NCBI RefSeq assembly: GCF_008727875.1
Contig: NZ_VTWS01000001.1
Location: forward strand, 558,001 to 622,000
Reading direction: 5' to 3'
DNA length: 64,000 nucleotides
From: Larkinella humicola
GTDB lineage: Bacteria; Bacteroidota; Bacteroidia; Cytophagales; Spirosomataceae
Under the pieces are notes generated by a model. It searched no databases. It was not told the DNA's origin and worked only from the letters and a program-made list of their open reading frames with translations. Shown here in pieces: positions 41,741 through 49,606 of this stretch; position 1 is the stretch's first letter, and every line of letters starts with the position of its first letter. The position numbers and the translations under genes were made by a program.

Positions 41741-42472
41741 TCAGTCTTTCTCCGAAACGAGCGAGTCGACGGCTGATCCGGCCGGTACGTCAGGCTTCGT
41801 TGAAATAAAAGCTTGTGACGGTTTGCGGCTCAGTGAAACCAGATTCTCGAAGCTGGGCTTTTTTTCCGAAGCCTTATAGATCTGAACCCGATAATCACCA
41901 ACGGGCATGTTGCTCATATTAAACCGGTAATACCGCTGGTAAGTGTTGCTGTACTCCTGGCAAACTGCAAAGCCCTTTGAGTTGAGAATTTCGATCCGCA
42001 AACGTTCTTCGTGCGGGTTATAAATGAACACTTTCAGGCAAGGTTCAAACCCGACTACGGAGGGTACAATCCGCGCCATTACGTCGGCGGTCGATGCCCG
42101 GCGTTCAGCGGTCATCAGTCGTTTTCGATCATGCGCAATTCTCGGATCTTCGTTGTCGGTCGGCAAACTCACCGTTTTGACATTGGAGGGTTCCAACTGA
42201 TTCTGAGTCACTTTCGTCACCGTAGCATTCAGCCGTCGTACATTGTTCTTCGTTAGCTTGACCAGTTTGTTCGAGTGAATTTCCTGGTGAATCAAGCGCT
42301 TGTCGGCATTGAAGTACCGGATGGCCGTACCGTTGGTGCGGTAATCGGTTGAAACCTCCCAATAACCGGGACGGTCGATTGGCGTAAGGTCTTCGGTGGA
42401 AGACTTCGGTTGAGCGAGCAATGTCCCAACCGAAAGCAGGCAGAGGCATGAACTACTTAAAATCGTTTTCAT
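41741..42472 (-). CDS. Exported protein of unknown function
   Basis: 243 residues: signal peptide (about 1-20), a basic middle, and a beta-rich C-terminal part (EPCLKVFIYNPHEERLRIEIL; NMPVGDYRVQIYKAS) that looks like a small beta-sandwich. No family recognised. Start at 42472 since the upstream in-frame 13 residues would precede the signal peptide. Divergent from the ECF sigma gene, 128 bases apart. Confidence 0.65.
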   Translation of the reverse strand: MKTILSSSCLCLLSVGTLLAQPKSSTEDLTPIDRPGYWEVSTDYRTNGTAIRYFNADKRLIHQEIHSNKLVKLTKNNVRRLNATVTKVTQNQLEPSNVKTVSLPTDNEDPRIAHDRKRLMTAERRASTADVMARIVPSVVGFEPCLKVFIYNPHEERLRIEILNSKGFAVCQEYSNTYQRYYRFNMSNMPVGDYRVQIYKASEKKPSFENLVSLSRKPSQAFISTKPDVPAGSAVDSLVSEKD

Positions 42473-42548
42473 GGTGTGTGCAATAGTTTTGTTCTGACTT
42501 CTTAGTCGCACTCGTTCCCCACATTGGTAACATCTTGCACAGAAAAAA

Positions 42549-42578
42549 TTGAAAAGCGCGCAATTTTCGGCATATTTG
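42549..42578 (+). promoter_or_regulatory. Promoter of the ECF sigma gene
   Basis: TTG at 42549-42551 and CATATTTG at 42571-42578 (one mismatch to TAnnTTTG) with 19 bases between; ATG at 42601. Fits the housekeeping consensus rather than an obvious autoregulated ECF promoter. Confidence 0.5.
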
Positions 42579-42600
42579 GTTCAAGCAGACTCTCCTACTC

Positions 42601-43182
42601 ATGCGGTTTTTTGCTCGCCAGCCAACCGATTCAGACTTGATTGCCGGACTAGAAGCCGGAGGTGTTCAACGCAGACAATGTGAAAATCGTCTGTACCAGA
42701 AATACGCCTATCTGATCGCCGACGGTGCCCGCAAACACCGTTTAGGGGAAGATGACTGCGCCAGTGCCTATTCCGATACGGTTCTCACCGTCATCGAAAA
42801 TGTCCTCGCAGGACGGTTTGAAGGACGGTCGGAACTAAAAACGTATATTTATCAGATTTTTACCAACAAGTGCATCGACCTGATTCGAAAAAAATCAACG
42901 CTACGGGACCGGGTGCATGATGCCATTTCCCTGGATGATTCGCTCCTGCAACTGCCCGATTCGGCCCGCTCGGTGGTGCAACAACTCATCGCCCAGAGCG
43001 ATGTTGAGCGGCTGCGTAAACTCATTGGTACGCTTGGCGACAAGTGCAGGGAGATGATTCTGGCGTGGGGTGAAGGGTATTCCGACGAGGAAATTGCCCG
43101 GCAACTGAATTACAACACGGCTTCGGTTGCCAAAACCAGCCGGTTGCGGTGTTTGGAACGTTTGAGGGACTTATACAAATGA
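42601..43182 (+). CDS. ECF-type RNA polymerase sigma factor
   Basis: 193 residues with sigma region 2 (about 28-95; YAYLIADGARKHRLGEDDCASAYSDTVLTVIENVL, ELKTYIYQIFTNKCIDLIRKK) and region 4 (about 128-190; EEIARQLNYNTASVAKTSRLRCLERL). No region 3, so an ECF sigma. Its stop overlaps the start of the membrane TPR protein (ATGA at 43179-43182), the usual place of an anti-sigma gene. Target promoters cannot be read from this window. Confidence 0.92.
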   Translation: MRFFARQPTDSDLIAGLEAGGVQRRQCENRLYQKYAYLIADGARKHRLGEDDCASAYSDTVLTVIENVLAGRFEGRSELKTYIYQIFTNKCIDLIRKKSTLRDRVHDAISLDDSLLQLPDSARSVVQQLIAQSDVERLRKLIGTLGDKCREMILAWGEGYSDEEIARQLNYNTASVAKTSRLRCLERLRDLYK

Positions 43183-43904
43183 ACGACCTGGAACGCATCG
43201 ACGACTATTTTTCGGGCCGCCTGCCGGTGGAGGAACGGGTTCGGTTTGAATCCTCCCTGGAAACCGATTCCGCGCTAGCCGAAGCCGTCGCCTTTTACCT
43301 GACCGCGCGGCAAGCGGCCCAAAACGAAGCCCGCGCCGACCGGAAAGCGCGCTTTGAAACGCTGCGGAAAGAGTCAGGACCGGTTCGTCAGTTGCCGGCT
43401 CGCACCTGGCTTGCGATAGCAGCGAGCGCCATGTTGGTTCTCGGACTGGGGGGATACTGGCTGTTCCAGCGTCAGACGCCGTCGGCTGCTGCACTGGCCG
43501 ATCAGTATATTCAGCAGAATTTCAGCCAGTTGTCTACTCATATGAATGGTCAACCCGACAGCCTTCAAACCGGGATTGCCCGCTACAACGAAGGGAAACT
43601 ACAGGAAGCCGGGGCGATTTTCAATGCTCTGCTGCAACGCAACCCCGCCGACGACCACGCTCAAAAGCTGGCCGGACTCGTCGCGCTCCGAACCGGTCAG
43701 TACAACCAGGCCATCGACCATTTCCACCGGCTGGGCGAACGCACCGATCTGTTTGCCAACCCTGGTCGGTTTCTGGAAGCCCTGACCCGACTCAAACGGG
43801 GACAACCGGACGATCGTCGTCAGGCCGAAACCCTGTTCAAAACGGTCATCGAGCAGAATCTGGAGGGAAAGGCGGAAGCCGAAGTACTGATTGATAAATT
43901 ATAG
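43179..43904 (+). CDS. Membrane TPR protein with anti-sigma-like topology (copy 1)
   Basis: 241 residues. N-terminal cytosolic helical segment (1-70; LERIDDYFSGRLPVEERVRFE) resembling the head of Bacteroidota anti-sigma/TPR proteins, one membrane helix (about 77-96), then two to three TPR-like units (PDSLQTGIARYNEGKLQEAGAIF; AQKLAGLVALRTGQYNQAIDHF). Basic residues before the helix place the N-terminus inside and the TPR part in the periplasm. Overlaps the sigma gene by 4 bases, so I infer a regulator of that sigma. A paralogue is at 44575. Confidence 0.78.
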   Translation: MNDLERIDDYFSGRLPVEERVRFESSLETDSALAEAVAFYLTARQAAQNEARADRKARFETLRKESGPVRQLPARTWLAIAASAMLVLGLGGYWLFQRQTPSAAALADQYIQQNFSQLSTHMNGQPDSLQTGIARYNEGKLQEAGAIFNALLQRNPADDHAQKLAGLVALRTGQYNQAIDHFHRLGERTDLFANPGRFLEALTRLKRGQPDDRRQAETLFKTVIEQNLEGKAEAEVLIDKL

Positions 43905-43934
43905 AACCGGTTTTCCCAGCTCAATTCTGGGTCG

Positions 43935-44306
43935 CTATGACCGATCGTAAATCTCGCAAATGGCCCGAAGAATCCGATCGGCTGGTCTTTTTTTGAGCAA
44001 ATACCCGGAAGCCCCCGCGCAAATCCCCTCCATCACCCGTTCGTCCAGGTCATCACTGGTCAGCAACAACACATCGACATCCGGAAATTCACGTTGCAGT
44101 TGCCCGCTGGCGGTTTTTCCGAGCTCCACGGAGAGTTCAATATCCAGCAGCACTACCTGCGGATTTAGCCCGCGGAGTTGGTTTTCCAATTCCTTCGTGT
44201 CGGCAAATGCCCCCATCAGAACATACCCCGCCGTGACGGCAATCTGGCTGGACAAAGCCTTTCGAAAACCATAATCCCGCTCATAAATCACAATACGGAC
44301 TGCCAT
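43935..44306 (-). CDS. Stand-alone receiver-domain protein (NarL-type)
   Basis: 123 residues holding only a response-regulator receiver domain: phosphoacceptor Asp55 in VVLLDIEL, acidic ERD at 9-11, Thr83 in LLTSDD and Lys105 in YLLKKRP. All key residues are present but there is no DNA-binding output domain. It is inverted between the two TPR paralogues. The ATG at 44306 starts the first beta strand; the upstream frame runs into the repeat at 44371. A cognate kinase is not in the window. Confidence 0.82.
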   Translation of the reverse strand: MAVRIVIYERDYGFRKALSSQIAVTAGYVLMGAFADTKELENQLRGLNPQVVLLDIELSVELGKTASGQLQREFPDVDVLLLTSDDLDERVMEGICAGASGYLLKKRPADRILRAICEIYDRS

Positions 44307-44370
44307 ACATTTCCTTGGGTTGGGGTTCACTCCCTTAGTCGGCAGAAACCGGCGTGTTGGAAACAAGTCT

Positions 44371-44480
44371 ACGGTTTTCGGTTTACGGTTTACGGTGCGG
44401 TTCTGCAGCGGGGTTAGCGCACTGTCAACCGAACATCGAATACTGAACACTGAATACAGTAAACCGAATACCGAAAACCG
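44371..44480. repeat. GGTTTACGGT-word palindromic region
   Basis: CGGTTTTCGGT (44372-44382) pairs with ACCGAAAACCG (44470-44480); the arms continue imperfectly as tandem words (GGTTTACGGTTTACGGT on the left; GAATACTGAACACTGAATAC and GTAAACCGAATACCG on the right). Lies between the receiver gene and TPR copy 2. Confidence 0.75.
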
Positions 44481-44574
44481 AATTTTCAGACAAGCTGTTA
44501 GCGTAATCCGGCAAAAAAACGACTAAGGTGTTGACGCATTCCACACCAACCAGGACGTAAATGCATCGCCCATA

Positions 44575-45282
44575 ATGAAAGAACTGGAACGAATCGACGA
44601 CTACTTTGCAGGTCGGCTGTCACCGGAAGACCGGGATCGGTTTGAAGCTACTCTGCCCCAGAATCCGGCTCTGGCCCGATCCGTGGCCTTTTACCTGCTG
44701 GCCCGCCAGACCGCCCGTCAGGAAGCCCGGCGGATGCTGAAACCGTTGCCGGTGCGCCGACTGCCGGTGCGGTTTTTGACGCTTCTGGCCGCCTGTCTGC
44801 TTCTGGTACTGGGGGTGGGCTGGTATCTGACGGTTTGGCAAACGCCCCCGTCGGCCCGCGAAGTAGCCGATCAGTATCTCTCTGAACGGTATAGTCAACT
44901 GCCGGTTTCACTCGATGGGCAAAGCGACAGTCTGAAAACCGGTTCTCACTTCTACAATATGGGGGAATTCAGAAAAGCGGAAACGGTTTTTGAAAGCATT
45001 CTCCAGCGGGAGCCTACGCATCCGGAAGCACTAAAACGGGCCGGTCTTGTTTCCCTGCGGCTCGGAAACTACGACCAAGCCATCGAACGGTTTCGCCGGC
45101 TTGGCCAGCAAACCGATCTGTATGCCAACCCGGGTATTTTTCTGGAAGCACTCGCCTATTTGAAGCGCGGACAACCGATGGATAAAAACCGGGCTAAAAA
45201 GTTGTTACTGACTGTTATTCAAGGCAATTTGGAAGGAAAGGAAGAAGCCGGGCAGTTGGTAGAGAAGATCACGGATAACTAA
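44575..45282 (+). CDS. Membrane TPR protein (copy 2, paralogue of 43179)
   Basis: 235 residues with the same layout as copy 1: N-terminal ELERIDDYFAGRLSPEDRDRFE and PALARSVAFYLLARQTARQEAR, a membrane helix at about 66-87, then TPR units (SDSLKTGSHFYNMGEFRKAETVF; ALKRAGLVSLRLGNYDQAIERF). Alignable with copy 1 over its whole length, so a gene duplication. No sigma factor directly precedes it; it heads a run with the subtilisin (19 bases) and the CHAT gene. Probably a membrane scaffold or regulator for those proteases. Confidence 0.78.
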   Translation: MKELERIDDYFAGRLSPEDRDRFEATLPQNPALARSVAFYLLARQTARQEARRMLKPLPVRRLPVRFLTLLAACLLLVLGVGWYLTVWQTPPSAREVADQYLSERYSQLPVSLDGQSDSLKTGSHFYNMGEFRKAETVFESILQREPTHPEALKRAGLVSLRLGNYDQAIERFRRLGQQTDLYANPGIFLEALAYLKRGQPMDKNRAKKLLLTVIQGNLEGKEEAGQLVEKITDN

Positions 45283-45301
45283 CTAAAATTTTCATATCCC
45301 C

Positions 45302-46792
45302 ATGCGTATTTTTACCAACCTGCTCATTTTCACAGTGGCTTTTTGGGCCCTGCTTTCCTGCAATTTAATTCGATCTTTCCCTGAATCCGGACATCTTCCC
45401 GACCAGAACATCATTCTTTTTCCCCTCATCGATGTGAAAGGAGAAAAAGTTTTTATACCAGTTGCTAAACAAATGGAGATGGTCGATTCAGTCAATAAAG
45501 AGCTTTTAAGCAATGGGAAAGAGACCATAAAAATCAAACACTGGTGTCCCTGTGATAGCGCCCTTGTGTTGCTGGAAGGAAAAAACCTGGACCAGTTGAT
45601 TATTAGCGGAAAAGAAATGGCGTCCAGTACAGGGGGGGGCAGTGGCGTTAGTGGAGAGCCTCCGTATGGCATTAAATTGAATTCCGATGGAAGCCTGACC
45701 TGGCCACAACTGGAAGAACCGGGTTCAAAAAACTACCGCCTTTCATTGCCCTACGGTCCCGTTAATGAGCCGGGAAAGGCGGTTAAAGTACTACTTCCTC
45801 CCGCGAATCCAACCGATCACCCCTTCATTATCGCGATCCTGGATACGGGCTTCGATGGTTCACTTTATACCCCTGCCTCCAATTCGTTTTGGGTCAACAC
45901 GGCCGAAATTTCTGGTGCCGATCACGATCACAATGGATTGGTAGGTGACCAGTTTGGCTATGATTTTGTGAACAATGCCAGTTTTCCGTACGACGACAAT
46001 AACCACGGAACGCTGGTGACTTCGCTCATCCATGAACAGTTCAGAAACAACCCCTGGGCCGCGGGCAAGGTCCGCTTTATGCACCTCAAAACCTTCGGTG
46101 CCGACGGCCAGGGAACGCTTTTCGATAACCTCTGCGCCCTGTCGTATGCCCGCCAAATGAACGCAAAAATAATCAATGCCAGTTGGGGATTTTACAGCCA
46201 GCAGGAAAGCAAACTACTGGGTCATTTCATTCAACAACTGAACACCACTGGGATTACGCTGGTGGCAGCCGCAGGCAATAAAAACGAACGTCTGGAGAGA
46301 AACCCGCTCGGGTGGCTGACGGGGATCTACCGCAATCTGGACACCAATCCTTTCTGGCCGGCGGCAATCAGTACGACCCGTGACAATGTCATTGCCGTTA
46401 CGACCATTCATTCTGACTCAAAGGAAAGCAAAGCCAATCCCGCCGTTTCACCGGAGGGGCCGTTTGATGTGTGCCCCAACCAGAACTATTCGAATCATGC
46501 GGTTAATATCGGCGTATTGAATAACCCTAACCTGAAAGTAACCGGCCCGATCATCCCGGGCTGCGAGGTGCTTGACATTACAGCCACTAATGGAAGGACA
46601 AAATCGGGGAGTTCCTTCGCGGCTCCGGTGGTGACGGGCAAACTGGTCAACAAACTCGGACCGGGCTGGTCTGCTCACAAACGGACGGACTTGTACACCA
46701 AAGTGCGCACCCTTTCTCCGACAACGCTTAAAACGGATCCCAGCCTGACCAATCGGCTAAAAGATCATTACGTGTTACGTCATGAACCCTAA
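45302..46792 (+). CDS. Subtilisin-like (S8) serine peptidase, lipoprotein
   Basis: 496 residues. Lipoprotein signal (hydrophobic 5-19, lipobox-like ALLSC with Cys20), an about 140-residue N-terminal region, then the S8 domain with the triad Asp181 (ILDTGFD), His235 (NHGTLV) and Ser438 (GSSFAAPVV); Asn in AAAGN completes the oxyanion hole. An aspartate-rich DHDHNGLVGD near residue 200 could bind calcium. Anchored on the periplasmic or outer side. Twelve bases before the TPR-CHAT gene, so they are expressed together. Confidence 0.92.
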   Translation: MRIFTNLLIFTVAFWALLSCNLIRSFPESGHLPDQNIILFPLIDVKGEKVFIPVAKQMEMVDSVNKELLSNGKETIKIKHWCPCDSALVLLEGKNLDQLIISGKEMASSTGGGSGVSGEPPYGIKLNSDGSLTWPQLEEPGSKNYRLSLPYGPVNEPGKAVKVLLPPANPTDHPFIIAILDTGFDGSLYTPASNSFWVNTAEISGADHDHNGLVGDQFGYDFVNNASFPYDDNNHGTLVTSLIHEQFRNNPWAAGKVRFMHLKTFGADGQGTLFDNLCALSYARQMNAKIINASWGFYSQQESKLLGHFIQQLNTTGITLVAAAGNKNERLERNPLGWLTGIYRNLDTNPFWPAAISTTRDNVIAVTTIHSDSKESKANPAVSPEGPFDVCPNQNYSNHAVNIGVLNNPNLKVTGPIIPGCEVLDITATNGRTKSGSSFAAPVVTGKLVNKLGPGWSAHKRTDLYTKVRTLSPTTLKTDPSLTNRLKDHYVLRHEP

Positions 46793-46804
46793 CGAACCCA
46801 CCCC

Positions 46805-49606
46805 ATGATGTCAGGCGGTTTTGCCAATCCCACCCTCCTCTTCCGAATGCGTTGGGGAGGGTGGCGGTGTTTTGGTATTCTGACCGGTTTTTTCCTGTTT
46901 TTCGAGGGCCTGGGCCAATGTCCGCAACCCGAAATGATCCGGTTGCGGTATGATAGCCTGATGACTCTGGATAACAACCAACAGGCCGTGGGTTTTCCTG
47001 CGCTGGTTCGGATCTGCGACCGCTGCCAGCTTAACCGCGACTCGACCTATGCCAAGATCTGGCACCGGCTGGGCACCCTGGCGTATCTTAAAAAGGATTA
47101 CCCAACCGCTATCGACTATACCCGCCGGGCCATCCGGCTGAACTCCCAGAAACGAACCGATGTCAGCCCCTCTTTTCTGGCCAAAAGCTATTTTAACCTG
47201 GGCAACATCTACCTGGACCAGCAGGATTTTCGGACGGCCCGACTGATTTTTCAGCAGTTTGTCACCATGGGAAGCCGGTATCCCGAACGGTATGAACTGG
47301 TGGGACTGGCCTACTGGCATTTAGCCAATCTCTTCTTTAAAGAGTCTGACTACCAGAAAGGCATCCGCCAGGCTGAATTAGGGGTTTCGTATGCCGAACG
47401 GATTGGAAACGCCGAATTGATGGCGGCTAATCTCACCGAAAAAGCCAATTGCCTGAAAGAAATCGGCGATTACGAACAGGCTTTACAAATCGTCAACCAA
47501 ATCATCCTTTTGTTCGGCACTTTGCCCGAGCCGTCGATTAGGCTGGCCAATGCATATTCGTCTCAGGCCAGTGTGCTGGGCCATTTGCACCGCTTTGGGG
47601 AAGCCCTTAAAGCGTATGAAAAAGCCTATGCGGTTCATGTCCAAATCCAGAACCCAGCCGGTCAGTCGGAAGTCACGTCAAACATTGGTTTTCTGTATGA
47701 CAATTACCTCCACCAGTACGATAAAGCGTTGATTCACTACCGGAAAGCGCTGGAAACCATCGGCGATACCCGCTACGGCCGCGTCCGCATCCTGAGCAAC
47801 ATCGGCGAAATTTACTGGCGAAAAAAGCACTACCCAACCGCCCTCCGGTTTTTCCAGACGGCCCTCGACACGCTGCACTTCGATGACCGGCAAAAACCGG
47901 CCGAACTGACCCGGACCATCCGGCTGACGCCCTACAAAGAGTACCTGCTGACGGTGATCCAGAATAAAGCCGATACCTGGCTCGACTACGCCAAAAGCAG
48001 GCCCGAACCCACCAGAAATCTCCTTCGGGAAGCTCTGAAACGCTACCAGATTGCCGACCAGATGATCGACATCATGCGGTTCGAGCAGGCGGGTCAGCAG
48101 TCGAAACTCTACTGGCGGCAGAAAACCCACAGCATGTATGAACGGGCCATCGAAACCGCTTACCGACTGAAGGACAGCGAAATGGCGTTCCACTTTTTTG
48201 AAAAAAGCCGGGCGGTTTTGCTGAGCGACAAACTCAATGAGCTGGGTGCCCGGCAGGAATTGCCTCCGCTACAGGCGCAGCAGGAACAGGATTTTCGCCA
48301 GCGGATCAACACGATGCAAAATGCGTTGTCGGAGTTGAAACCCGGCAGCCGTTCCTACGATTCAACGCGAACGGTTTTGATGACCGAGCAGGAAAAACTG
48401 GATGCGTTTCTCAAAAAACTGGAACAGGAAAACCCCACGTATTACCGCTACAAATTCGACAATACGGTTCCGTCCCTGGCGCGTCTTCAAAACTGGCTGA
48501 GCGACCGGAAATCGACGCTGGTGACCTATTTTGTCGGAGATAGTGCCTTCTATAGTCTGGCCGTTGGGGCATCCGGCACCCGGTTGGTGCGGCAGTCCGT
48601 TCAGGACTATCAAAAGGTGGTGGGCGAATTTCTGCCGCTGTGTGCCACTGACCGGCAAAACCGGCAGTTCGGGCGGTTCTTGACGCTGAGCCATCAGGTT
48701 TACAACCAACTTCTTAAACCGCTGAATCTGACTACAGAACGCGTTATTATTTCGCCCGATTACCACTTTATCCCGTTTGAAACGCTCAGTAAATCCGCCA
48801 ATCAACCCGACTTTCTCCTCAAACACCACGCGTTCAGTTACGGTTATTCGGCCACGGTTTTGTTGAAAGAAACGGAGCGTCCGTCGTCGAAGAGTTCGGA
48901 ATTTCTGGGCATGGCTCCGGTGCATTTCAACCAGGCCCTCCAGCAGGCAACCCTTGCTGGCTCCAGTCAGGTGCTGGCCAACATCGGTGATCGGTTCAGT
49001 CATCCGACGGTTTTGACCGACCAGGCCGCGACCCGCCGGGCGTTCCGGACACTGGCCCCGAACTACCGTGTCGTTCAGTTGTTTACACACGCCGAAGCCG
49101 ACAGCGTTGGACATGAACCCCTGTTGTACTTTGCCGATTCGACCCTGCGGTTGTCGGAACTCAGCGACGCTGGCCCCTACCAGACGCAGCTCATCGTTTT
49201 ATCGGCCTGTAAAACCAGTCTGGGCGTCAACCAGCAGGGCGAGGGAATTTTCAGTCTGGCGCGCGGATTCGCCACGCTCGGAATTCCCAGCGTCCTGACC
49301 ACGCTCTGGAGTGTGGAAGATCAGGCGACGTACAAGCTTACGGAGCGATTTTATCACCACCTAAGCGAGGGACTTCCGAAAGATCAGGCGCTTCAGCTAG
49401 CGAAACTCGACTGGCTGGCCAGTGCTTCCCGCGCCGACCAGTTGCCCTATCGCTGGGCCGGACTCATTCTGGTAGGCAACGCCGACCCGCTGTCTGACTT
49501 CCAAACGGCCTGGTGGTGGCTGGGGGGCGGTTTCGTTGTCATTCTGGCCCTTGTGATGAGCCGGCGATTCCGCCAGCGAACCCGAAAACCGAAATCGGTT
49601 TATTGA
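46805..49606 (+). CDS. TPR-CHAT protease-fold protein with C-terminal membrane anchor
   Basis: 933 residues. N-terminal signal-like helix (about 18-37), a long TPR array (about 70-480), a linker helix region, and a CHAT domain (about 620-895) of the caspase-like clan CD with catalytic His762 (LFTHAEAD) and Cys802 (LSACKTSLG). A final membrane helix at about 905-923 is followed by the basic tail RRFRQRTRK. This topology puts the TPR and CHAT parts in the periplasm. Overlaps the convergent GH16 gene by 7 bases. ATG 46805 is used; 46847 is an alternative. Confidence 0.9.
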   Translation: MMSGGFANPTLLFRMRWGGWRCFGILTGFFLFFEGLGQCPQPEMIRLRYDSLMTLDNNQQAVGFPALVRICDRCQLNRDSTYAKIWHRLGTLAYLKKDYPTAIDYTRRAIRLNSQKRTDVSPSFLAKSYFNLGNIYLDQQDFRTARLIFQQFVTMGSRYPERYELVGLAYWHLANLFFKESDYQKGIRQAELGVSYAERIGNAELMAANLTEKANCLKEIGDYEQALQIVNQIILLFGTLPEPSIRLANAYSSQASVLGHLHRFGEALKAYEKAYAVHVQIQNPAGQSEVTSNIGFLYDNYLHQYDKALIHYRKALETIGDTRYGRVRILSNIGEIYWRKKHYPTALRFFQTALDTLHFDDRQKPAELTRTIRLTPYKEYLLTVIQNKADTWLDYAKSRPEPTRNLLREALKRYQIADQMIDIMRFEQAGQQSKLYWRQKTHSMYERAIETAYRLKDSEMAFHFFEKSRAVLLSDKLNELGARQELPPLQAQQEQDFRQRINTMQNALSELKPGSRSYDSTRTVLMTEQEKLDAFLKKLEQENPTYYRYKFDNTVPSLARLQNWLSDRKSTLVTYFVGDSAFYSLAVGASGTRLVRQSVQDYQKVVGEFLPLCATDRQNRQFGRFLTLSHQVYNQLLKPLNLTTERVIISPDYHFIPFETLSKSANQPDFLLKHHAFSYGYSATVLLKETERPSSKSSEFLGMAPVHFNQALQQATLAGSSQVLANIGDRFSHPTVLTDQAATRRAFRTLAPNYRVVQLFTHAEADSVGHEPLLYFADSTLRLSELSDAGPYQTQLIVLSACKTSLGVNQQGEGIFSLARGFATLGIPSVLTTLWSVEDQATYKLTERFYHHLSEGLPKDQALQLAKLDWLASASRADQLPYRWAGLILVGNADPLSDFQTAWWWLGGGFVVILALVMSRRFRQRTRKPKSVY

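Follow-up and report, generated by a model that had tools for sequence, protein, structure and literature searches.

Why does a gene for an extracytoplasmic function (ECF) sigma factor in Larkinella humicola keep company with genes for membrane proteins carrying tetratricopeptide repeats (TPR1 and its paralogue TPR2), a receiver-only protein, a subtilisin-like S8 protease, and a TPR-CHAT protease? The locus lies in a window of 64,000 nucleotides (nt), the whole stretch of DNA analyzed here (contig NZ_VTWS01000001.1, positions 558,001 to 622,000). A preliminary description of the window, made from the sequence alone, had listed these six genes, all of which are present where it placed them, and had proposed that a periplasmic protease pair acts on the membrane TPR proteins and so controls the sigma factor. 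We report that the sigma factor, TPR1, S8, and CHAT genes form a set kept in many genera, that the first two, on good support, probably make up a sigma/anti-sigma pair, and that a promoter motif, which like its tie to the sigma gene is a new finding of this work, accompanies that gene from genome to genome.

A four-gene set kept across Bacteroidota genera

Named genomes were scanned with a CHAT alignment, giving 195 relatives, of which the best 80 were kept; these are the 80 loci referred to throughout. The order sigma-TPR1-S8-CHAT on a single strand was found in 56 of the 80, and in these complete loci the median gaps were -0.5 (sigma-TPR1), 25 (TPR1-S8), and 12 nt (S8-CHAT). The sigma-TPR1 pair was present in 64 loci. 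S8 alone was missing from eight, which keep sigma-TPR1-CHAT; 11 have S8-CHAT without sigma and TPR1 nearby, one has TPR1-S8-CHAT with a distant sigma factor close by, and four have CHAT alone, one of them (L140) on a short contig. In genome G011 (L050) the sigma/TPR1 pair is inverted relative to S8-CHAT and still adjacent to it. The complete set occurs in Larkinella, Spirosoma, Dyadobacter, Runella, Arcicella, and Telluribacter, among others, and also in Pedobacter, Chitinophaga, Mucilaginibacter, and one Flavobacterium sp. The neighborhood search that had been suggested thus finds the set in many Bacteroidota genera, which rules out a chance cluster; the preliminary description would have dropped the idea of a module had the genes occurred together only in this genome, and they do not. 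Receiver orthologues were found in three genomes of the same genus and TPR2 orthologues in five (40 stretches scanned), and these two genes are additions to the core set. Literature searches, made in open-licence PMC articles, found no description of the set.

Two variants of the arrangement were seen. At L148:7968-13839 and at L149, a tandem pair of CHAT genes follows sigma-TPR1 and S8 is missing. At L166:7571-7942, the S8 slot holds a 123-amino-acid protein, perhaps an S8 N-terminal domain lacking its protease (hhalign 69, hmmsearch E 0.028). Five small genes in S8 slots were tested as stand-alone N-terminal domains; those of L094, L154, L159, and L164 failed, and only that of L166 is suggestive.

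A second class of CHAT proteins is encoded on contig C20 of the same genome and at seven other loci of the same family of genomes (L074 to L079 and L085). It adjoins a distant ECF sigma factor (37 to 69 bits) and a weakly TPR1-like protein (18 to 41 bits), and both were close by in 8 of the 15 second-class loci inspected. Because this class also adjoins sigma/TPR pairs, the CHAT/sigma/TPR association probably arose, or was kept, more than once. The genome's own second CHAT locus (L037:7881-17716) has two CHAT genes back to back, together with a distant ECF sigma factor and two weakly TPR1-like proteins.

The sigma factor and its probable anti-sigma factor

The first gene of the set encodes a genuine ECF sigma factor. 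It matches the NCBIfam model TIGR02937 at 64.8 bits (cutoff, 42.9), and, at E 0.1 or better, region 2 was recognized in every one of 17 sequences and region 4_2 in seven of them; in the window protein itself neither region reaches the Pfam cutoff. The sigma part of a model of the L114 orthologue matches region 2 of sigmaE (4lup, Z 11.9) and SigW (5wur, Z 11.5), and also AlgU.

TPR1 consists of an N-terminal helical domain (amino acids 1 to 74), a transmembrane segment at about amino acids 73 to 92, and C-terminal TPR repeats; the hydrophobic segment recurs in every one of 65 TPR1 proteins. Modeled as three helices (pLDDT 85.7, pTM 0.60), the N-terminal domain had as its top three matches among 52 aligned chains MucA, RslA, and again MucA (Z 5.2, 5.0, and 4.9), followed by an unrelated chain at 3.8. 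Aligned by hhalign with the zf-HC2 domains of relatives (16 of the 18 matches, two partial ones having been dropped), it scored a probability of 73.5, against 0.07, 0.3, 8.2, and 0.33 for four controls; we take zf-HC2 to be a marker of anti-sigma factors. TPR1 also matches the NCBIfam "anti-sigma factor" model, below its cutoff, and TPR2, which is 53% identical to TPR1 (46 to 53% across four aligned TPR2 sequences), does so at E 2.1e-8, likewise below it. The resemblance of TPR1 to anti-sigma factors derives from these hhalign, structural, and NCBIfam matches; among the best 60 of 93 matches listed, a PDB profile search matched only the TPR part. The zinc motif Hx3Cx2C is absent from the TPR1 alignments. 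This does not exclude membership of the ASDI group of anti-sigma domains, since about 44% of ASDIs lack the motif according to the available part of their description (PMC7406223). The N-terminal domain of TPR1 thus resembles, as modeled, a non-zinc class I-like anti-sigma domain, and TPR1 is probably an anti-sigma factor. The earlier suggestion that a membrane TPR protein controls the sigma factor therefore stands as far as TPR1 is anti-sigma-like, in its gene overlap (ATGA), its hydrophobic segment, and its likeness to MucA, RslA, and zf-HC2 domains.

A promoter motif that accompanies the sigma gene

Comparison of the DNA upstream of the sigma genes revealed a two-part motif, read on the other strand, of the form TGTTWCC-N16/17-CGACTAA. 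For comparison, the SigX consensus is TGTAAC-N17-CGAC. The whole 7.86-Mb genome of L. humicola contains two perfect sites, both in this locus (Table 1), and none of the reversed control. In the 80 loci there were 43 perfect sites where 0.04 were expected, again with none for the reversed control, and a simple tiling of open reading frames (ORFs) puts 36 of them between genes. When spacers of 12 to 23 nt were allowed in 78 loci (two near-identical ones having been dropped), only 16 (11 sites) and 17 (28 sites) occurred, never 12 to 15 or 18 to 23. The preliminary description had left out the divergent gene DIV, which belongs to the gene set and has its own copy of the promoter; a second perfect copy faces the receiver gene, and a one-mismatch copy precedes TPR2-S8-CHAT, with one-mismatch sites at the same position in all five other Larkinella loci. 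Sites with up to two mismatches are no commoner in this genome than those of the control (65 versus 113, spacer 17 only), and the regulon of L. humicola is therefore read as essentially local. A one-mismatch site on contig C13 (L256:3317-3748) lies 38 nt before a gene for a 120-amino-acid exported relative of DIV (blastp E 1.3e-6); the other one-mismatch sites may be chance.

The motif occurs where the sigma gene occurs. Among 59 relatives, L. humicola included, a site was found in all 19 genomes with an orthologous CHAT (380 bits or more) and in 2 of the 40 without one. Across the family, 121 genomes were compared, the sigma gene occurring in 58 and a site in 52: 44 have both, 14 the sigma gene only, 8 a site only, and 55 neither, so that a site is present in 44 of 58 genomes with the sigma gene versus 8 of 63 without it (Fisher p 7e-13). 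The reversed control in the same genomes showed no association (25 of 58 versus 27 of 63). Order-wide, a perfect site was found in 8 of 148 genomes.

Loci that lack the sigma gene gave a further comparison. Fourteen of the 16 genomes with a sigma-less locus were searched for the gene elsewhere (E 1e-15; L140 and L145 were left out), and 8 of the 14 have it. All five S8-CHAT loci with a site before S8 and no sigma gene nearby belong to genomes that carry the gene elsewhere; two of these sites are perfect and three have one mismatch, and in G063 the sigma gene is in two fragments. The other six genomes gave no sigma hit of at least 60 bits and no perfect site at the locus.

Sites inside coding sequences

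In many relatives the motif also lies within the genes of the set. The TPR gene adjoining S8 often contains TGTTTCC-N17-CGAC(C/A)AA, an internal site (at most one mismatch) being present in 18 of 70 such genes of the 80 loci, whereas 20 synonymous shuffles gave a mean of 0.05 and a maximum of 1. Sixteen of these 18 genes have it 158 to 419 nt before S8. Codon choice at the site is skewed (GTT for 26 of 29 valines, TCC for 21 of 28 serines, counted in the 40 of 72 TPR genes in which the peptide pattern was found) relative to overall usage (233 of 784 and 160 of 906). In Larkinella knui (L089), TPR1 has a nearly identical peptide without the DNA motif, and TPR2, which there adjoins S8, keeps the motif.

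The sigma gene itself contains a site on its plus strand (at most two mismatches) in 43 of 64 cases, versus a shuffle mean of 0.5 and a maximum of 2. Among 31 sigma representatives, in which several genera appear more than once, TGTGTTGA is present in 27 and CGACTAA in 25 rows, the latter kept with Thr (18), Ser (4), or Ala (3) as the first residue. The CGACTAA stretch, which we take to encode region 2.4, is the top window of synonymous conservation in the sigma gene (z 4.45 within the gene), and the top window in TPR1 covers the -35 part (z 3.1). The sigma and TPR1 genes of many relatives are thus constrained at the DNA level beyond what the proteins need. Promoters inside sigma and anti-sigma genes, if that is what these sites are, would be an unusual form of overlapping information.

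Genes behind the sites

Outside the core genes, the window and the 80 loci contain 70 sites with at most one mismatch, and 59 of these have an ORF within 180 nt. The genes behind sites encode S8-CHAT, TPR2, the receiver, LytTR proteins, LuxR-type helix-turn-helix (HTH) proteins, small exported proteins, and lipoproteins. S8, CHAT, the receiver, and TPR2 are themselves predicted sigma targets, a feature that the preliminary description had missed. Stand-alone LytTR proteins were found behind sites five times in one Pfam scan (three of the five scanned in shortened form) and once in another, all above the cutoff; a stand-alone LuxR-type HTH gene lies behind a site in other genera. A separate Pfam scan of ten regulon proteins returned nothing above the cutoff. 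Because LytTR and LuxR-type genes lie behind sites, the receiver can be counted among several half response regulators that share one role; with its own perfect site it is not an unrelated insertion, and this seemingly misplaced gene is accounted for as a predicted target of the sigma factor. With the exact motif, the likely regulon of this sigma family can be read off the sequence in many genera.

Some of these genes belong to type VI secretion. In Persicitalea (G024; L245:3664-19933, L246:903-1343, and L135:1562-2790), a TssK-like gene, a lipoprotein gene, and a LytTR gene have sites in front of them, the lipoprotein gene lying upstream of three Hcp-like genes, one VgrG-like gene, and one TssF gene. 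In G011 (L247:2769-5158), a site precedes a gene with a pesticin-like lysozyme domain, a histidine kinase gene, and a response regulator gene, about 22 kb from a TssN gene of the same genome. At three Cyclobacteriaceae-type loci (L143:2537-7806, L144, and L147), TssG, TssN, a TssK-like gene, and TssO immediately precede S8-CHAT, and this sigma factor was not found in the genomes of these loci. The TssK naming is weak: the L143 protein matches Pfam VasE at E 0.0098, below the cutoff, and the L135 protein, which has no Pfam match, is named by its similarity to that of L143. TssN is present in 10 of 59 relatives and absent from L. humicola; with links at these three loci, Persicitalea, and G011, type VI secretion is not a general partner of the system.

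The two proteases

The caspase-like CHAT protein matches PF12770 (E 3.2e-44), and its catalytic residues H762 and C802 are present in 81 of 81 sequences. By eye, the window protein has a signal peptide, a C-terminal transmembrane segment, and a basic tail. A simple hydropathy scan of S8, CHAT, and TPR1 (not a trained predictor, and without counting of transmembrane helices) found both N- and C-terminal hydrophobic segments in 69 of 80 CHAT proteins. C39 is conserved in 64 and C74 in 63 of 81. Terminal hydrophobic segments together with two mostly conserved cysteines fit a periplasmic protein, which CHAT is predicted to be.

S8 matches Peptidase_S8 (2.8e-22), has an LLSC lipobox by eye and an N-terminal domain with a CxC motif, and belongs to a group in which the catalytic residues D181, H235, N326, and S438 are conserved in 69 of 69 sequences. 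By the hydropathy scan (threshold, a 15-residue mean of 1.6 or more within the first 70 residues), no more than 34 of 68 S8 proteins have an N-terminal hydrophobic segment, and the other 34 lack one. Of the periplasmic protease pair in the preliminary description, CHAT is thus predicted to fit, and the pair as a general feature is weakened by S8. In PADLOC, S8 (subtilase, 1e-4; IetS, 3.6e-4) and CHAT (BovA, 2.4e-5) gave weak matches only, and no model of a known defense system was strongly matched.

Features of the locus

The coordinates are given in Table 1. DIV orthologues occupy the same place in all five other Larkinella loci among the CHAT loci of named genomes; the similarity of DIV to type IX secretion system tails is weak (E 0.005, below the cutoff). 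The receiver matches Response_reg at 3.5e-13, and CHAT has six matches in the genome of L. humicola. Between the promoters of the receiver and TPR2 (44366-44495) lies a strong hairpin of degenerate AACCG-type repeats (z -4.1), which may be a terminator or else a repeat element of intergenic DNA.

Table 1. Genes and promoter sites of the L. humicola locus (window positions)
Feature	Position	Strand	Remarks
DIV, divergent gene	41741..42472	(-)	243 aa (amino acids); signal peptide by eye; predicted sigma target
Promoter site TGTTACC-N17-CGACTAA, towards DIV	42502..42532	(-)	Perfect; -10 box 29 nt from DIV ATG
ECF sigma factor	42601..43182	(+)	193 aa
TPR1, probable anti-sigma factor	43179..43904	(+)	241 aa; overlaps sigma by ATGA
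Receiver-only protein	43935..44306	(-)	123 aa; D11, D55, T83, K105; predicted sigma target
Promoter site TGTTTCC-N17-CGACTAA, towards receiver	44335..44365	(-)	Perfect; -10 box 28 nt from receiver ATG
Promoter-like site TGTTAGC-N17-CGACTAA, towards TPR2-S8-CHAT	44496..44526	(+)	One mismatch; 48 nt before TPR2 ATG
TPR2, TPR1 paralogue	44575..45282	(+)	235 aa; layout as TPR1
Promoter-like site TGTTTCC-N17-CGACCAA, inside TPR2 coding sequence	45048..45078	(+)	One mismatch; 223 nt before S8
S8 subtilisin-like protease	45302..46792	(+)	496 aa; starts 19 nt after TPR2
TPR-CHAT protease	46805..49606	(+)	933 aa; starts 12 nt after S8

A proposed circuit and its alternatives

We propose that these genes form a self-contained envelope-signaling circuit triggered by proteolysis, a reading to which we assign a probability of about one-half. 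TPR1 would hold the sigma factor at the inner membrane by a class I-like, non-zinc anti-sigma domain at its N terminus, and its TPR domain would lie in the periplasm. On a periplasmic signal, the TPR-CHAT protease, anchored in the membrane and acting through H762 and C802, would cut TPR1 alone or together with S8, and further proteolysis of TPR1 would free the sigma factor. The free sigma factor would transcribe DIV, the receiver gene, and TPR2-S8-CHAT from the motif; more protease would be made, closing a positive feedback loop, and TPR2, as a second anti-sigma-like protein, would shut the response off. In other genera, stand-alone regulators of the LytTR or LuxR type, small exported proteins, and genes of the Persicitalea type VI region would come under its control through the same site. 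The gene set, the families, the topology pattern, the motif with its link to the sigma gene, and the codon-level constraint are computed results; as parts of this proposal we infer that the sigma factor binds TPR1 and reads the motif, that CHAT cuts TPR1, the signs of the feedback, and the signal.

Several findings weigh against the circuit. S8 and CHAT, the proposed triggers, are themselves predicted targets of the sigma factor. The matches of TPR1 to anti-sigma folds are modest, and the single-chain co-fold of the sigma factor with the TPR1 N-terminal domain, though a confident model (pTM 0.71, pLDDT 87.6), has a structural match list that covers the sigma part only. Half of the S8 proteins lack the N-terminal hydrophobic segment. 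S8-CHAT stands apart from sigma and TPR1 in 11 of the 80 loci, six of the genomes giving no sigma hit of at least 60 bits, so that the S8-CHAT pair has a function apart from this sigma factor. Of the perfect sites in the 80 loci, 7 of 43 are inside called ORFs, and in other genomes, too, some sites fall within ORFs or have no clear gene behind them. The sigma gene of the window, like that of L090, is without the internal site seen in relatives, and the strength of the 80-locus and codon tests is overstated by an unknown amount, because the genes are related and the shuffles few. Finally, 14 of 58 genomes with the sigma gene have no perfect site and 8 of 63 without it have one or more. These last counts would also fit a motif recognized by some other factor that only happens to accompany the genomes, a reading that we consider most improbable: the 8 of 63 is below the 27 of 63 given by the reversed control in the same genomes, 94 of 105 sites fall in genomes with the sigma gene, and the -35/-10 form with a fixed spacer of 16 or 17 nt is that of an ECF promoter.

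The more serious contender, still somewhat doubtful in our judgment, is that S8 and CHAT are outputs and not triggers. The sigma/TPR1 pair would then sense alone, for example by binding a ligand at its TPR domain or by way of a housekeeping site-1 protease, and would switch on an S8-CHAT cassette together with regulators and exported or type VI proteins, for use in envelope defense or competition. The sites before S8 in the five loci with the sigma gene only in trans, the one-mismatch site before TPR2-S8-CHAT in Larkinella, and the internal sites shortly upstream of S8 in 16 of the 18 site-bearing TPR genes all suit such a cassette, as do the occurrence of S8-CHAT in six genomes in which no sigma gene was found, in three loci behind TssG-TssN-TssK-like-TssO, and, in two genomes, the sites that lead to a pesticin-like lysozyme gene and to type VI genes. 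Set against it are the sigma-TPR1-CHAT sets kept without S8 in 8 loci and the ordered four-gene sets in 56, which fit a working unit better than a mere target, and the second CHAT class, which also adjoins distant sigma/TPR pairs. An improbable third reading is a conflict or programmed-death module, in which CHAT and S8 form a suicide cascade and the sigma factor merely sets its level. CHAT proteins are used in bacterial conflict, and the weak PADLOC matches of S8 and CHAT point the same way; caspase loci with an ECF sigma factor and a TPR gene are also described in the accessible part of PMC8195603. On the other side, no known defense model was strongly matched, no toxin or pore family was recognized among the eight window proteins scanned, and the genes behind the sites, for exported proteins and half response regulators, suggest a response of an adaptive kind.

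Comparison with known systems

In systems of the RseA-DegS and RsiW type, a sigma factor is held by a membrane anti-sigma factor and periplasmic proteolysis is the trigger; in the RseA-DegS pathway a regulated cut of the anti-sigma factor at site 1 is followed by one at site 2. The circuit proposed for L. humicola shares both features, the anti-sigma factor at the membrane and, as proposed, the proteolytic trigger in the periplasm. It differs in the TPR repeats of the periplasmic part and in that a CHAT cysteine protease and a subtilisin would take the place of a PDZ trypsin. DegS-RseA is also treated in the available section of PMC10028731. As modeled for TPR1, the ASDI domains of PMC7406223, as far as the available part of that source goes, are three-helix N-terminal domains encoded downstream of ECF sigma factors and include non-zinc members; unlike them, TPR1 carries TPR repeats outside. 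Since that part of the source reports ASDIs beside only 6% of Bacteroidetes ECF sigma factors, pairings of the sigma-TPR1 type may be undercounted.

The EACC2 caspase loci (PMC8195603) likewise bring a caspase-like protease, an ECF sigma factor, and a TPR protein into one neighborhood. In the portion of that article available to us, they use other domain families, including a DUF1822 TPR gene, and neither EACC2 nor DUF1822 was identified here; nor does that portion mention an anti-sigma role, an S8 protease, or a promoter.

The closest precedent for the circuit, by analogy, would be the type III-E Csx29-Csx30-CASP-sigma system. In the part of PMC10028731 at hand, Csx29, a TPR-CHAT protein, cuts Csx30, the inhibitor of CASP-sigma, and the locus has three CASP-sigma sites. 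Both there (CASP/Craspase) and here, a TPR-CHAT protein is encoded with an ECF sigma factor and an inhibitor (Csx30 there; here, probably, TPR1), and several sites for the sigma factor lie within the locus. Type III-E encodes its CHAT protease with Cas7-11, and the present locus differs from it in several ways: the eight scanned window proteins include no Cas protein (cas genes were looked for neither elsewhere in the genome nor at the other loci), the probable inhibitor, a membrane protein, carries a class I-like domain, CHAT shows by hydropathy both a signal peptide and a transmembrane anchor, S8 is added, and the set extends over many Bacteroidota genera. The comparison points to relatives of the CRISPR-linked CHAT/sigma switch beyond CRISPR, and the system lets the role of periplasmic CHAT proteases be asked in a concrete and widely conserved setting. 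More tentatively, CHAT-controlled sigma factors may constitute a widespread, CRISPR-independent form of envelope signaling in Bacteroidota, of which type III-E would be one special case and in which, in many relatives, the sigma factor would act on its anti-sigma factor and protease genes through promoters locked inside coding sequences.

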